In this document: positions 33,246 to 40,273 of the stretch, piece after piece
How the letters are laid out: each line of letters starts with the position of its first letter
Numbering within the stretch: the first letter of the stretch is position 1
DNA from: Kordiimonas sp.
Lineage (GTDB): Bacteria > Pseudomonadota > Alphaproteobacteria > Sphingomonadales > Emcibacteraceae
Assembly: GCA_002700365.1 (NCBI GenBank)
Contig: PADB01000009.1
Coordinates: forward strand, 1-64,000
Direction: 5' to 3'
Length of the DNA stretch: 64,000 bases
The notes under the pieces: model-generated
What the model was told of the DNA's origin: nothing
The model's input: only the letters and a program-made list of their open reading frames with translations
Databases searched by the model: none
Position numbers and translations under genes: made by a program

Positions 33246-34085
33246 TCAGCCCACTTTTAAGGCAGGCTGCGCCGCATCAGAGGTAATATACATGCCCCGA
33301 CGCCCCGGCACCGGTTTGAATTGATCGGTAATACCCAATACGGTTTCCGCCGCACCTAAGAATAACGTACCATCATCCGGCATCGCTTTACGCATCCGGT
33401 TCAAAACATCCGCTTTCGTTTCCTGATCGAAATAGATCAACACATTACGGCAGAAAATAACATCAAAACTACCTAATCCGCGAAAACTGTCTAACAGATT
33501 AAATGGGCGGTACGTTACCATGGAACGCAATTCATCATTGATCTGCCACATTTCACCAACTTGTGTGAAATATTTCACCAAAAGTTGAATCGGAAGGCCA
33601 CGTTGCACTTCAAATTGTGAATAGAGACCCGCTTTCGCTTTTTCCAAAACCTGTGTGGATAGGTCAGTGCCTATGATTTCAATCTTCCAGCCTTTCCACA
33701 TGGCCGCGGCTTCTTTTAACAAAATAGCCAATGAATAAGGTTCCTGCCCTGTGGACGCAGCCGCACACCATATCCGCAATCGTTTCGTTGCCGCCCGATC
33801 ACGTTGCATCGCTGGCATGATATGTTCTTTGAAAAGATCGAAAGGCGTATTATCACGGAAAAAGAACGACACATTCGTGGTCATGGCTTCCGTAACTTCG
33901 GCCAGCATGTCTTCACGGCGGCGCAAGCGCACCTCGTTCATCAGGTCATCCAATGTTTCCATGCCTTTTTGCCGCGCCAATGGTGTCAGGCGGCTTTCCA
34001 GCAGGTAAACCTTATCCGGCGTTAAGACCAATCCAGAACGTTCTTTCAGGACGCCGCTGATGAAATCAAAATCTTCTTGTCTCAT
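33246..34085 (-). CDS. cheR: Chemotaxis protein methyltransferase CheR
   Basis: The 279-residue product methylates receptor glutamates using SAM. It has an N-terminal helical domain (DFDFISGVLKERSGLVLTPDKVYLLESRL) and a methyltransferase domain (RIWCAAASTGQEPYSLAILLKE, then FDVIFCRNVLIYFD, in parts). The gene overlaps the end of cheB by four bases and is the last gene of the che operon. Confidence 0.94.
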   Translation of the reverse strand: MRQEDFDFISGVLKERSGLVLTPDKVYLLESRLTPLARQKGMETLDDLMNEVRLRRREDMLAEVTEAMTTNVSFFFRDNTPFDLFKEHIMPAMQRDRAATKRLRIWCAAASTGQEPYSLAILLKEAAAMWKGWKIEIIGTDLSTQVLEKAKAGLYSQFEVQRGLPIQLLVKYFTQVGEMWQINDELRSMVTYRPFNLLDSFRGLGSFDVIFCRNVLIYFDQETKADVLNRMRKAMPDDGTLFLGAAETVLGITDQFKPVPGRRGMYITSDAAQPALKVG

Positions 34086-35242
34086 TTGCCGCCTCCAATC
34101 AATATGCTACTCACGCGTTTTCCGATTTGGTCCAGCGGCAACAGCTCATTACACAGCCCAGCTTCACTGACGGCACCCGGCATTCCCCAAACAACACTGC
34201 TTTTTTCGTCCTGCGCCAATACGGCCCCTCCTGCTTTAACAACAGTATGGCATCCGTTCATGCCGTCCTGCCCCATGCCTGTCAAAATTACGCCCAATAC
34301 ATCGGCCCCGTAACACGATACGATGCTGTCAAACATAGGATCAACGGCCGGACGGCAGAAATTCACCGGGGCATCCTGATCCAGTTTAATGACTTTATGA
34401 CCATCTTTAGAGATGATCCGCATATGAAAATCGCCCGGTGCGATATACACTTTTCCGGCTTCCAATACATCGCCATCGGCAGCCTCTTTGCAGGGCAATT
34501 TTGTTGATTGCGTCAAATGCTGTGCCAATATCGTTGTAAATGTCGGCGGCATATGCTGCGTAATCACCACAGGTACTTTAATGGGCTTCTTTATATCCGA
34601 CAGGAATGTCTGCAACGCCTGCGGTCCCCCTGTGGAACTACCAATCGCCAGAATTTTTGCATTTAACGTCGCCAATGAACGCAATTTTGGTGCATCCGAA
34701 ATCTTACGGCGTCCCGCGACGACGCTTTTACGTTGCGCGGAGAATTTTTCTGCCTCGGCAAAAGGTGTGCCGCCTGATTGACGCCGTGCCGCTGCTCCCA
34801 AGGCTTTGACTTTATTAATTAATTCATCGCGAAACTTGGAAGACGCACTGACCTCACGGCTGCTTTCCGGTTTGGGAATATAATCCGCGGCACCACGGGC
34901 CAACGCCTTCATGCTGACTTCGGCATTACGTTTCGTCAATGTAGACGCCATAATGACCTGAACACCCGGGATTTCTTCGATTATTTTTGGTAATGCCGTT
35001 AACCCGTCCATTTCCGGCATTTCAATATCCAGAACCACAATTTCCGGACGCTGGCTTTTTAATGATTTTAATGCCATTGCCCCGTTACTGGCCGTCCCTA
35101 CTATCGTTACCGCATCCTCTGCTTCAAGCCAGCGTGCAATCAACCCGCGTATCACGGCGGAATCATCCACGACCATGACACGGTAAGGGCCGGATTTTGT
35201 TGCCATTGTTTGTGGCACTGTTTTCGTTACGTTAGACTGCAC
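34082..35242 (-). CDS. cheB: Chemotaxis response regulator and receptor methylesterase CheB
   Basis: From the GTG at 35242 the product is 386 residues. AAGGA lies 7 bases upstream of this GTG. A longer frame from 35311 would overlap cheY and add non-family residues. The receiver has VMVVDDSAVIRG and VVLDIEMPEMDGL. The esterase has the catalytic serine in AIGSSTGGPQAL, histidine in ITQHMPPTF and aspartate in MGQDGMNG. It lies between cheY and cheR. Confidence 0.93.
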   Translation of the reverse strand: MQSNVTKTVPQTMATKSGPYRVMVVDDSAVIRGLIARWLEAEDAVTIVGTASNGAMALKSLKSQRPEIVVLDIEMPEMDGLTALPKIIEEIPGVQVIMASTLTKRNAEVSMKALARGAADYIPKPESSREVSASSKFRDELINKVKALGAAARRQSGGTPFAEAEKFSAQRKSVVAGRRKISDAPKLRSLATLNAKILAIGSSTGGPQALQTFLSDIKKPIKVPVVITQHMPPTFTTILAQHLTQSTKLPCKEAADGDVLEAGKVYIAPGDFHMRIISKDGHKVIKLDQDAPVNFCRPAVDPMFDSIVSCYGADVLGVILTGMGQDGMNGCHTVVKAGGAVLAQDEKSSVVWGMPGAVSEAGLCNELLPLDQIGKRVSSILIGGGK

Positions 35243-35261
35243 GAATAATTCCTTGTGTTGC

Positions 35262-35627
35262 TTACAGCAATCCCACCTGAGAAAATTTGGACTCAATAAT
35301 CTCACGATCAAAAGGTTTCATAATATATTCATCCGCACCGGCAGCGATGGCGGCACTGATATGCGCCATATCATTCTCGGTCGTACAGAACACAACCACG
35401 GGGCTGTCGCCGCCGCTTGATTTACGCAAGTTTTTCAGAAAATCCAGCCCGTTCATTACAGGCATATTCCAATCTAACAAAACCACGTCTGGCATCGCCC
35501 GCGTACATGAATCCAGGGCATCCTGCCCGTCTACCGCTTCTTCGATGTCAAAGTTCAATTCTTCTAAAATCCGGCGGGCCACTTTACGAATGACCTTTGA
35601 ATCATCAACTACAAGACAGGACTTCAT
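35262..35627 (-). CDS. cheY: Chemotaxis response regulator CheY
   Basis: The 121-residue single receiver domain starts at the ATG preceded by GGAG (MKSCLVVDDSKVIRK). The phospho-acceptor is in VVLLDWNMPVMNGLDF, with T in VFCTTEND and K in EYIMKPFD. Once phosphorylated by CheA it acts on the motor switch. It sits between cheW and cheB. Confidence 0.92.
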   Translation of the reverse strand: MKSCLVVDDSKVIRKVARRILEELNFDIEEAVDGQDALDSCTRAMPDVVLLDWNMPVMNGLDFLKNLRKSSGGDSPVVVFCTTENDMAHISAAIAAGADEYIMKPFDREIIESKFSQVGLL

Positions 35628-35672
35628 CATATTCTCCAACAATGCCCGTTACGTTCTCATTTCTAAGCTGCC

Positions 35673-36125
35673 TTACGCAGCCGTTGCCTGTTCCAGACCG
35701 AAGTCCAAAAGCCGCTCGACATCCAAAATAACCAATAACTGATCTTCTAGGCGGTAAATACCGCTTGATACTTCTTGCCACCGTGCATCCAGCGTCACCG
35801 GATTTCGCTCAAACCGGTCCTCCGGCAAAGCCAACACTTCACCCACGGAATCAATTAACAAGCTATAGGGCTCCCCCTGATGTTCAACGACAACGCTCAT
35901 ACAGCGGTCAACATCTTCGAAAGCCGTCAGGCTTAACCGTTCTCGCAAGTCTATTGCCGTGACGATTTTTCCCCGCAAATTCAACACGCCGGCTACAGCC
36001 TTTGGCGAACGCGGAATGGCCGTAATATTATGAGGAGATAAAACATCATGCACCTCCAGCACAGGTATACCTAAAAGCTGCCCGGCCAGACGTATGGTCA
36101 CAAATTGACGATTAACAGTAGTCAT
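35673..36125 (-). CDS. cheW: Chemotaxis coupling protein CheW
   Basis: The 150-residue product is a single CheW SH3-like domain that bridges receptors and CheA. Typical segments are FVTIRLAGQLLGIPVLEVHDVL, then GVLNLRGKIVTAIDLRERL, and LLIDSVGEVLALPEDRF (in parts). It lies 23 bases downstream of cheA. Confidence 0.94.
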   Translation of the reverse strand: MTTVNRQFVTIRLAGQLLGIPVLEVHDVLSPHNITAIPRSPKAVAGVLNLRGKIVTAIDLRERLSLTAFEDVDRCMSVVVEHQGEPYSLLIDSVGEVLALPEDRFERNPVTLDARWQEVSSGIYRLEDQLLVILDVERLLDFGLEQATAA

Positions 36126-36148: not shown

Positions 36149-39100
36149 TTATGCCGCATCTTCGCTTTCAGCCAACATTTCATCCAATGCGCTGAGCAAC
36201 ATATCTTTATCAAGTTTAGCCACATAATCGTTAAAACCAACTTGACCGCCACGATCAAAGTCCTGTGTATTTGTACGTGATGATAAGGCGACCAGCGGGA
36301 CGTCTGCCCATCGGTTATCTTGCTGTTTGACCGCCTCGGCAAAGGCAAAGCCATCCATTTCCGGCATTTCGATGTCACTGACAATCACGTCAAAGTCATA
36401 ACCCTGATCCCGTAGACTTAAGGCTTCCTGCGCATTATCAACCGCTGTGACGCGATAGCCTGCCGCAGACAACAGTGGCTTTAACATATTGAGGAAAAAG
36501 GCACTGTCATCAATCAACAACACATTTGATTTTTTCTTGGCGAGGGCTGCTTCATTCTCTGCAGATTGGAAACCGCCTAACCCGCCAAAGACTTCAGCCA
36601 TGTAATGGGCCACATCAATAATTTCAGTCGCTTTACCACCAATAATCGCAGTCCCAACGATACCCTGAATTTCTGAAGCCAATTCAATATTCATTTGATC
36701 TTCCAGAATATCGACGATTTCGTTAACGACCAGTCCCATACTGCTATCACCGTCAGAGAAGACCAGAACTGGCTGACGCCCAGATTCTTTCATGTCATAG
36801 CCATCATTCAGTTTAACCAAAGGCATCAGTTTGCCACGGTATTGAACCACAGGGCGGCCATCAGAAGTTTCAATGCTTTCCACATCGATCTCTTCCAGAC
36901 GCGCCACCAATGATAGCGGCACTGCATGCTGCCCCCCGTCATCCGCGACACGGAAGACCAGCAGGGTTTCACGGTTTGAGGACAAGGTATCTGCCATTAA
37001 TTCAGTCTCAGAGACATGTTCATTTTCGGACATAACATCGCTTGTTTCCGCGGCAATACCATTCGGATCAAGGATCATAATCACGCTGCCATCACCCAGA
37101 ATTGTATTTCCGGAATAAATAGACAGATCACGCAGTAGCGGCGCCACCGGTTTGACAACGATTTCTTCGGTATCAAAGACCTGATCGACCACAATCCCGT
37201 AAGTAAAGCCGCCGACCTGCGTCACCACAATGAATTCTTCACGGTTTGCATCTTCTTCCTCATCGCTTTCTGCTCCCAGTACATCGCGCAGATACACCAG
37301 AGGCAACAAACGATCACGTAACCGCAAGACAGGTGTCGCATTAATATGTTCGATTTTATATTCTGAGTCTTTAGAGGCGCGGACTAATTCCAGCACACTA
37401 ATCTGCGGGATTGCAAAACGTTCATCGCTGGACTTCACAATCAATGCAGACACGATTGCCAATGTCAGCGGAATTTTAATAATAAAGCTGGAACCGCGAC
37501 CTTCTGTGGACTTCAAATCGACTGTCCCGCCGATTTTTTCAATATTACTTCTGACCACATCCATGCCAACGCCGCGCCCTGATACGCTCGTTACTTTTTC
37601 AGCCGTTGAAAAACCAGGATGGAAAATAAAGCGTTGGATTTGCTGGTCTGTGAGGTCCGCCAATTCTGCTTCGGTCACAACTTCATTGGCCAAGGCTTTC
37701 TGCTTAATTTTTTCTATATTCAAACCACGGCCGTCATCCGTAATTTCAATAATAATATGCCCACCTTCATGATAGGCATTCAGGCGCACGACACCCACTT
37801 CCGGTTTACCTGCCGCGATACGCTCTTCCGGCATTTCCAGACCATGGTCTGCTGAGTTCCGCACCATATGGGTCAACGGATCCTTAATCAACTCCAATAC
37901 CTGCCGGTCTAGTTCTGTATCCGCACCCAACATTTGCAGATCTATTTTCTTGCCCAGATCCACTTGCAAGTCACGAATAATCCGTGGCAGTTTCGCCCAG
38001 GCATTACCAATCGGCTGCATCCGGGTTTTCATGACACCCTCTTGCAGCTCCGTAGTGCATTGACTTAAGCGCTGCAGCGGAACAGTAAATTCGCTATCAC
38101 CGCTCCGCCGTGAAATTTGCATTAACTGGTTACGTGTCAGCACTAGCTCGCTGACCATGTTCATCAAGTCTTCCAGCAAATGCACGCTCACGCGAATACT
38201 TTGATTAGCAACAGATGTCTCAGAGGCTTTCTTCGCCGCCGCATCAGGCTTGCTTTGTGTATCTTTTTTCTTTTGGGCGGTTACCTGTGACTGGGCATAT
38301 TTTTCGGAATGTGAGACGATAAGCAGTCCCAACTCATGAAAGCGTGTCACAGCTTCTTCGACTAACAGTGGCGCGGCATTGATTTCTTCCATGACAGAAC
38401 GGAAATAGCCAATGACTAATGCTGCTCTCTCACCATCTACACCTGCCTGAATCAAAGGACCGAAGGCATCTTCCAATCCATTATCATGTGCACTATCTTC
38501 TGTCTCGAACAACGCCTTCAAATAAGACACAACGCGCGTTTTCTGGTCGCGTAGGTTCACCCCGTCATACGCAGATTTGAAGGACATATCACCCAGCAGG
38601 CGATTATGGAATAGATGCACGATCACATTTAGCGCATCCTCGCCACCAACACGATCAAACAATGACCCGGTGCTGCTGTCTGCTGCTGTTGGTGCGGCCG
38701 TCTCTTCTTCCGGCTCATCATCTGGCCCCGGTGCAGCCGCCCATGCTGCTTCCAGTTCTTCCAGTGTCACATCGCCAGGCAGGCTTGGTTCCGCGACGAT
38801 TGCAGATGATATATCATCTTCTTCCACGGGGGTCGGGTCCGGTACAGCGACAGGGCCTTCAGCCACGACCTTTTCGTCTATATCTGCAACAGCAGGAGCA
38901 ATATCTTCTCCGTTCGCCATCGCGTTCAGGCGATTTATAACATCGCTATCATCACCATTGGGCTCTTCTTCGGTGGCCTCTAAACCTGCAAGAATTTCTT
39001 TAATCCGGTCCAATGATTCCAAAATTAAAGTAACAGCGTCCGGTGTTACTTCCATTTCACCATCGCGGAATTTCCCCAACACATTTTCAGAAGCATGGGC

Positions 39101-39283
39101 AACGGATTCCAGTCTCGGCAATCCCAAAAACCCACACGTCCCTTTGATTGTATGGACCAAACGGAAGATATTATCTAAAACGCTTTTATTGTTGGGATCT
39201 TTCTCTAGCTCCACCAATTCAACATCAACAACATCAATGCTCTCGGCCGTTTCGGTGAGGAACTCGTTTAATAGATCATCCAT
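36149..39283 (-). CDS. cheA: Chemotaxis histidine kinase CheA with a truncated-globin-like insert and C-terminal receiver
   Basis: The 1044-residue product is a hybrid CheA. Residues 1-105 are the HPt domain with phospho-acceptor H44 (RLVHTIKGTCGFLG). After an acidic linker, residues about 206-325 resemble a group 1 truncated haemoglobin (SLFDRVGGEDALNVIV, then a DGVNLRDQKTRVVSYLKALF helix). Then come the dimerisation and ATPase domains (MVRNSADHGLEMPEER, DDGRGLN, GRGVGMDVV), two CheW-like domains and a receiver (VLLIDDSAFFLNML, VIVSDIEMPEMDGFAF). The kinase motifs are intact. The insert lacks the usual haem-ligand histidine (see findings). The gene heads cheA-cheW-cheY-cheB-cheR, with chpT upstream. 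Confidence 0.95.
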   Translation of the reverse strand: MDDLLNEFLTETAESIDVVDVELVELEKDPNNKSVLDNIFRLVHTIKGTCGFLGLPRLESVAHASENVLGKFRDGEMEVTPDAVTLILESLDRIKEILAGLEATEEEPNGDDSDVINRLNAMANGEDIAPAVADIDEKVVAEGPVAVPDPTPVEEDDISSAIVAEPSLPGDVTLEELEAAWAAAPGPDDEPEEETAAPTAADSSTGSLFDRVGGEDALNVIVHLFHNRLLGDMSFKSAYDGVNLRDQKTRVVSYLKALFETEDSAHDNGLEDAFGPLIQAGVDGERAALVIGYFRSVMEEINAAPLLVEEAVTRFHELGLLIVSHSEKYAQSQVTAQKKKDTQSKPDAAAKKASETSVANQSIRVSVHLLEDLMNMVSELVLTRNQLMQISRRSGDSEFTVPLQRLSQCTTELQEGVMKTRMQPIGNAWAKLPRIIRDLQVDLGKKIDLQMLGADTELDRQVLELIKDPLTHMVRNSADHGLEMPEERIAAGKPEVGVVRLNAYHEGGHIIIEITDDGRGLNIEKIKQKALANEVVTEAELADLTDQQIQRFIFHPGFSTAEKVTSVSGRGVGMDVVRSNIEKIGGTVDLKSTEGRGSSFIIKIPLTLAIVSALIVKSSDERFAIPQISVLELVRASKDSEYKIEHINATPVLRLRDRLLPLVYLRDVLGAESDEEEDANREEFIVVTQVGGFTYGIVVDQVFDTEEIVVKPVAPLLRDLSIYSGNTILGDGSVIMILDPNGIAAETSDVMSENEHVSETELMADTLSSNRETLLVFRVADDGGQHAVPLSLVARLEEIDVESIETSDGRPVVQYRGKLMPLVKLNDGYDMKESGRQPVLVFSDGDSSMGLVVNEIVDILEDQMNIELASEIQGIVGTAIIGGKATEIIDVAHYMAEVFGGLGGFQSAENEAALAKKKSNVLLIDDSAFFLNMLKPLLSAAGYRVTAVDNAQEALSLRDQGYDFDVIVSDIEMPEMDGFAFAEAVKQQDNRWADVPLVALSSRTNTQDFDRGGQVGFNDYVAKLDKDMLLSALDEMLAESEDAA

Positions 39284-39500: not shown

Positions 39501-40133
39501 CTAGGCTGACAGTACGGCACGCAAGCGCAGAGAGGTACCCCCTTCTGCCTGATATTCAATCCGGCCGCCTTTTTCCGCAGCCACCTGACGTGCTAAAAAG
39601 GCCGGTACGGTTTTCGGGTCAATGGCATCTTCTGGAAGTTCTCCTGTCAACGCCTGCACCATTTTATCCTGAATGATAATGCGTTCACCATTGGCCACAA
39701 CGTCCATTGTTACTTGCCCGTCCGCATTGACCGCCGTCACAGTAAGGTCGCCACCACGAATAAGCGTCTCCCCCGCAAGTAACGTCATATTCAACAGGAT
39801 CTTTAAGGCGCCCTTTTCCAATTCACGCACATCCGGTTGCCAATTCAGCGTGACCTTTCCCTCACTAAAGAAACTGCGTACGGCTTTTTCCGCCTCATCC
39901 AGGGGAATGACACTATCAAAGCCACCCGCTGCCCCGAAAGCCAGACGGAAGAATTGCAAACGGTTTGATGTCTGGCGGGCACTTTGCTCTAACAACTTAA
40001 TCACTTCGCCGCGCATAAATTCATCATCTTCAACGCCCAGAATTTCAATACCGTTGGCGATCGCCCCGACAGGGCTGACCAGATCATGACAAAGCCGCGA
40101 ACACAACAAAGCTGCAAAATCAATATTACCCAT
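39501..40133 (-). CDS. chpT: Histidine phosphotransferase ChpT
   Basis: From the ATG at 40133 (GAGGGAG 8 bases upstream) the product is 210 residues. It opens with DFAALLCSRLCHDLVSPVGAIANGIEIL, holding the phosphorylated histidine (H16). A degenerate HATPase-like C-terminal domain follows (LNWQPDVRELEKGALKILLNMTLLAGE and GGTSLRLRAVLSA, in parts). ChpT passes phosphate from CckA to CtrA. A longer frame from 40226 is less likely. Its place directly upstream of cheA in the same direction links the CtrA pathway to the chemotaxis operon. Confidence 0.88.
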   Translation of the reverse strand: MGNIDFAALLCSRLCHDLVSPVGAIANGIEILGVEDDEFMRGEVIKLLEQSARQTSNRLQFFRLAFGAAGGFDSVIPLDEAEKAVRSFFSEGKVTLNWQPDVRELEKGALKILLNMTLLAGETLIRGGDLTVTAVNADGQVTMDVVANGERIIIQDKMVQALTGELPEDAIDPKTVPAFLARQVAAEKGGRIEYQAEGGTSLRLRAVLSA

Positions 40134-40273
40134 CAAAGATACTCCCTCGACCTTCAGCGTTATGGATGATAGGTTACGCACCGTTTCATTGTTCCTAAAG
40201 CTATACAGGCTGAAAAGCAATGGCAACTACAACCATTTCCACAAATATCGTTAGACAAAGATTACAAAAAAAT

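Follow-up and report, generated by a model that had tools for sequence, protein, structure and literature searches.

A truncated-haemoglobin domain without haem ligands at the P2 position of an alphaproteobacterial F5-type CheA, and its possible role as a docking module

The window analysed, a 64,000-nucleotide stretch of Kordiimonas sp. DNA (positions 1 to 64,000 of contig PADB01000009.1), carries on its reverse strand a chemotaxis locus that includes the gene for a CheA kinase of 1044 residues. The genes of this locus and the domains of the kinase, identified by Pfam except where stated, are as follows.

33246..34085, reverse strand: cheR
34082..35311, reverse strand: cheB
35262..35642, reverse strand: cheY-like receiver gene
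35673..36125, reverse strand: cheW
36149..39283, reverse strand: cheA, F5-type chemotaxis histidine kinase of 1044 aa (open reading frame, Pfam and full-length AF2 model)
36188..36523, reverse strand: C-terminal receiver (REC) domain of CheA, residues 921-1032
36584..37447, reverse strand: two CheW-like domains of CheA, residues 613-745 (Pfam) and approximately 771-900 (two Pfam stretches, together with the strand pattern of the model)
37463..37882, reverse strand: P4 ATPase domain of CheA, residues 468-607
38024..38206, reverse strand: P3 dimerisation domain of CheA, residues 360-420
38264..38668, reverse strand: globin domain of CheA derived from a group 1 truncated haemoglobin and without haem ligands, residues ~206-340 (Pfam PF01152, AF2, Foldseek and VIA)
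38996..39277, reverse strand: P1/HPt domain of CheA, residues 3-96
39501..40226, reverse strand: chpT-like histidine phosphotransferase gene, upstream of cheA (Pfam HPTransfase and synteny)

The resultant domain order of CheA is thus HPt, linker, haem-less globin, linker, P3, P4, CheW, CheW and REC, and direct reading of the sequence located the phosphorylatable HPt histidine, the N and G boxes and the REC aspartate motif. Assignment to the F5 class was made on domain architecture using published criteria (PMC10782961): the HPt, H-kinase_dim, HATPase_c and CheW core was present by Pfam, as were the two CheW domains and the C-terminal receiver, and both the core architecture and the operon are shared with the class as described there.

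The globin occupies the linker between P1 and P3, i.e. the place of P2, in agreement with the position between the HPt domain and the kinase core given for it in the initial annotation. The group 1 truncated-haemoglobin (trHb1) pattern first noticed in this region was borne out by profile, sequence and fold comparisons alike. The isolated domain scored 28.7 bits against the Pfam Bac_globin model PF01152 (curated cut-off 21), phmmer ranked truncated haemoglobins first among PDB sequences (4xdi, E 1.2e-5; 1dlw, E 2e-5), and HHalign comparison of 28 homologous CheA domains with six free trHb1s gave a match of 98.9% (E 2.3e-17) extending over 118 columns. An AF2 model of the isolated domain, computed from retrieved sequences alone (mean pLDDT 92.8, pTM 0.85), exhibited the 2-over-2 globin fold, with truncated haemoglobins as the top matches: Foldseek returned 1dlw as the best (E 3.7e-5), VIA-align gave Z values of 14.4 to 1dlw (rmsd 3.1, 116 residues aligned) and 14.3 to 6cii (rmsd 3.2, 119 aligned), and the sole useful match in a viral fold library was a viral globin (E 4.6e-3). 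Within CheA the landmarks SLFDRVGG, HLFHNR and AFGPL correspond to residues 207-214, 223-228 and 273-277, respectively. The limits initially proposed (38309-38668, residues 206-325) are correct for that stretch, but the last helix of the globin extends to approximately residue 340 (38264) in both the isolated and the full-length AF2 models.

That a P2 or other helical domain might resemble a truncated haemoglobin by chance is suggested by the Pfam family scan, which aligned only the N-terminal 56 of the 121 model positions. Against this explanation, the HHalign match covers 118 columns, the best fold matches were all truncated haemoglobins with Z values of about 14, and intermediate CheA sequences gave full-length Pfam globin matches (e.g. 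L081, 68.6 bits); P2/CheY-binding Pfam models were not listed for CheA at E ≤ 1 in a scan whose HMMER filters limit weak matches, and Bac_globin was the model favoured. With a chance resemblance or a different fold ruled out by phmmer, Pfam, Foldseek, VIA and HHalign, the probability of this explanation is negligible, and residues ~206-340 of CheA are confirmed as a complete trHb1 fold by ancestry. Homology, the 2-over-2 helices, the SLFxRVGGxxA start and the length are all shared with group 1 proteins such as Chlamydomonas THB1 (4xdi, 6cii) and Paramecium haemoglobin (1dlw), from which the CheA domain differs in its replaced F8, B10 and other pocket residues, its long last helix and its location within a kinase.

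The haem-ligand positions were assigned by aligning the CheA domain with 13 free alphaproteobacterial trHb1s, each of which has tyrosine at B10 and histidine at F8, and three features of the CheA domain were thereby identified.

38462..38464, reverse strand: Phe274, in place of the proximal histidine (F8)
38606..38608, reverse strand: His226, in place of the distal tyrosine (B10)
38600..38617, reverse strand: HLFHNR, residues 223-228, with His223 and Arg228 new by column comparison with truncated haemoglobins (Asp and Lys there)

Both replacements recorded in the initial annotation, that of the proximal histidine (within AFGPL) and that of the B10 tyrosine by histidine, were therefore upheld by the alignment. 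They are not peculiar to this protein, however. The His/Phe pair at B10/F8 was present in all 20 aligned globin-bearing CheAs of the window's own family (f1), and in 25 CheAs from four further families of the same order (f2, f5, f7 and f8) B10 was Ala, Ser, Gly, Cys or Glu and F8 was Leu, Met, Ile, Gly or Cys, such that Tyr-B10 and His-F8 were both absent from 45/45 aligned globin-bearing CheAs of the order. Other trHb1 invariants, namely the helix E glutamine, the GGP motif, the tyrosine that follows and the FG histidine, have gone too. By way of contrast, several positions have become or remained near-invariant across the same 45 proteins: His223 (45/45), Lys248 (44/45), Val220 (44/45), Glu300 (42/45) and Arg228 (41/45), and likewise Val297. 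As the commonest residues of free trHb1s at these six positions are Asp, Arg, Ala, Glu, Lys and Thr, respectively, Glu300 has been retained and the other five are new.

We infer from this comparison that the globin domain of the window's CheA is haem-free. Were haem still bound, His226 at B10 could serve as the ligand instead of F8, an arrangement with which the invariance of the B10 histidine among the 20 globin-bearing CheAs of the family would be consistent; given that F8 is phenylalanine, that GGP, the helix E glutamine and the FG histidine have been lost, and that the sister families have histidine at neither B10 nor F8, so that any such ligation would be confined to f1, this arrangement is considered very improbable.

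The survey of CheA homologues for the insert and its histidine covered 149 relatives plus 385 genomes sampled across the class. A globin was found inside CheA frames of five families of the window's order, ruling out a one-species oddity, and restriction to the order was ruled out in turn by globin-bearing CheAs in the class sample, where approximately 17 genomes of some ten families outside the order carried one, 140 genomes of that sample having a strong CheA-core match. The proximal histidine, absent throughout the order, was intact elsewhere: seven CheAs from six other alphaproteobacterial families (f66, f98, f102, f109, f120 and f130) possessed both Tyr-B10 and His-F8 (L071, L072, L075, L077, L081, L086 and L087), with full-length globins by Pfam where scanned. 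Also outside the order, ligand loss was seen in three families, f94 and f111 having Phe/Phe and f44 having Phe and a shortened F8 region, and f88 had Phe/His. The haem-competent globins occupy the same P1-P3 linker as the haem-less ones, all globin-bearing CheAs have the two-CheW-plus-receiver (F5-type) architecture, and a chpT-cheA-cheW-cheY-cheB-cheR arrangement is mostly kept around both (partially in L073, L077, L081 and L086), so that haem-competent and haem-less loci look orthologous.

In a phylum-wide sample of 398 genomes, no CheA-globin fusion was seen outside Alphaproteobacteria, three long frames put forward as such (G743, G710 and G744) proving on inspection to be spurious open frames. 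No globin-bearing CheA was seen on a named plasmid, the CheAs of Azospirillum plasmids matching in the kinase part only.

Several other associations of truncated haemoglobins were recorded during the survey. Two CheAs (L071:4392-7952, forward strand; L076:2-2620, reverse strand) contain a second trHb1, with Tyr and His intact, inside the first CheW (P5) domain; a CheW protein (L089:2479-3684, forward strand) ends in a truncated-haemoglobin domain (Pfam, 41.4 bits); and in a chemoreceptor (L082:4464-7328, forward strand) an N-terminal trHb1 that retains Tyr and His is followed by a series of repeated PAS-like units and then by an MCP signalling domain. Elsewhere in the phylum, many genomes of family f193 (L240, L242, L251 and others) have paired adjacent trHb1 genes. 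The window's own genome (G000) has three more Bac_globin matches above the cut-off, outside CheA and in frames of 125-148 aa (L001, L002 and L004), among them L002, a trHb1 in which both Tyr-B10 and His-F8 are present.

Trees of the kinase core required 10 changes of globin presence among 162 rows and 14 among 70 rows that included more globin-less members of the order, counts which do not distinguish gain from loss. In the globin tree the linker domains required 3 changes, against a mean of 22 for shuffled data, and a single clade of linker domains was not rejected (AU p 0.31). Given the 141 columns and long branches of the globin tree, these data are only tentatively read as ancient insertion on one or a few occasions, after which the domain was lost repeatedly. 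Similarly, the ligand distribution is read as a haem-competent globin having entered CheA, with its ligands apparently lost at least twice, in the window's order and in the f94/f44/f111 group.

The globin was cleanly absent from the CheAs of six members of the order, two from the window's own family (G001 and G011), one from f7 (G049) and three from f4 (G040, G046 and G034), and absence from such close relatives indicates that the domain is dispensable. In one further genome (G033, family f3 of the order) the CheA (L226:1585-4701, reverse strand) has an insert of ~110-120 residues at the globin place with no match to any globin model, perhaps the same globin decayed past recognition.

The domain is nevertheless under purifying selection, if weakly. 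For close haem-less pairs of the order with unsaturated dS, dN/dS was 0.06-0.17 in the globin, 0-0.04 in the kinase core and ~0.07-0.3 in the preceding linker. Pairs from f1 with core identities of 76-82% had globins 34% identical, and at the same core identity two haem-competent pairs had globins 55% identical. The reading frame is intact in the window's CheA and all aligned relatives, and with dN/dS below 1 both a pseudogene and a sequencing error were rejected.

Rapid divergence of this kind, a globin dN/dS resembling that of the flanking linker, several clean losses among close relatives and the nearly unrecognisable insert of G033 would all suit a drifting spacer, i.e. a globin that has persisted mainly since it is folded and harmless after haem loss, and is now on its way out with no specific partner. 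The dN/dS values are, however, well below 1, all 45 aligned copies are in frame with the fold kept, and new near-invariant charged residues recur across five families; a drifting spacer is consequently regarded as unlikely. The plain relic that had been offered as one option at the outset is likewise unlikely as an order-wide reading, in view of the purifying selection and the new near-invariant residues.

The full-length AF2 model (pTM 0.36) retained the globin with a pLDDT of ~95 and placed values below 50 at residues 133-169, 185-202 and 340-365, with no fixed inter-domain contact predicted for the globin. In this model the globin is held by a disordered linker at either end, a P2-like anatomy. 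The known P2/CheY-binding domain likewise lies between P1 and P3 on flexible linkers, is weakly conserved and is often missing (PMC10782961); the module in the window, by contrast, has a different fold, that of an all-helical globin. A haem-free globin fold in a signalling protein has a precedent in RsbR of the stressosome, whose non-haem globin directly binds the protein Prli42 (PMC6614362), the host there being a STAS-domain protein with the globin N-terminal, as against internal in CheA.

Taken together, the loss of the pocket, the order-wide replacement residues, the P2-like tethering and the RsbR precedent make a docking or spacing role the best explanation for the domain. The ancestral globin in CheA would have been haem-competent, as it apparently still is in alphaproteobacterial families outside the window's order. 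Within that order B10, F8 and the other truncated-haemoglobin invariants of the pocket would then have been lost together, with the fold retained and other residues fixed instead. On its flexible linkers, the resultant haem-free helical module could provide docking or spacing close to the phosphorylated HPt domain, where it may hold a partner protein, putatively CheY, CheB, a ChpT-like protein or an array partner, and thereby tune phosphotransfer. The docking role raised in the initial annotation remains plausible, and the fuller proposal, a haem-free docking or spacer module in a P2-like role after haem-competent ancestry, is given an even chance. Against docking stand a full-length model that predicts no inter-domain contact, an evolutionary rate about equal to that of the flanking linker, and the absence of the domain from close relatives.

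The RsbR precedent bears equally on the suggestion that the domain is a haem-free sensor, its old pocket binding some other small ligand or answering a physical cue so as to modulate the kinase, since haem-free globin folds act in stress signalling (PMC6614362) and the haem-competent relatives point to an ancestor that was a sensor. The flexible tethers on both sides, which do not couple it rigidly to the kinase core, and the differences in pocket residues between families (His/Phe in f1, Ala or Ser/Leu in f5), which are unlike a shared ligand site, render such a sensor distinctly improbable.

A second candidate for docking lies in the linker that precedes the globin.

38711..38779, reverse strand: linker motif PGDVTLEELEAAWAAAPGPDDEP, CheA residues 169-191, with a short predicted helix at 174-183, the rest of the linker being disordered (sequence comparison and AF2 model)

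In the form PGEVSLEELEAAFxxAPGPDD this motif occurs in the CheA linker of many families, with or without a globin, and is sometimes doubled (L105 and L114). Within the order, a looser version, for which the shuffled expectation was near zero, was detected in all 7 globin-less CheAs and in 35 of the 49 that bear a globin. It was also present in 27 of 85 other CheAs without a globin, and in 0 of 17 CheAs outside the order with haem-competent or otherwise degenerate globins. Because it is kept even in globin-less CheAs, the motif would appear to be a docking candidate at least as good as the globin.

Chemotaxis receptors are already known to carry globins (PMC6194562; PMC13401364): HemAT and the PAS plus Bac_globin MCP of Corallococcus also place a globin in a chemotaxis pathway, but theirs is on the receptor and with haem, whereas that of CheA is in the kinase and without ligands. 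Nor does the CheA domain correspond to a globin-coupled sensor, being of the trHb1 type, internal and devoid of haem ligands. The text of the CheA architecture survey by Berry, Andrianova and Zhulin (PMC10782961) uses neither 'globin' nor 'heme', and the only auxiliary domains that it lists are P2, REC and CheC/CheX. Within the collection of papers searched, nothing was found on CheA in combination with globin; such fusions might figure in Hade et al. 2017, from the title of which, as cited in PMC7082302, multidomain truncated haemoglobins are a known class.

The haem-competent relatives are perhaps the most interesting consequence of these findings, because CheA is said in PMC10782961 to have no sensor (input) domain of its own, sensing being the task of dedicated chemoreceptors. 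Judged from their residues, the F5-type CheAs with intact ligands, two of them with a further haem-competent globin in the first CheW domain, might sense O2 or NO themselves with no receptor, and the window's order might have converted this sensor into a haem-free docking module, a possibility that we advance tentatively. The haem-competent and haem-less orthologues constitute a natural series with which to ask whether gas can be perceived by a kinase directly, in what way a sensor is dismantled, and to what use a globin fold can be put without haem; and the domain itself is a previously unrecognised occupant of the P2 place in CheAs otherwise filed as P2-less.
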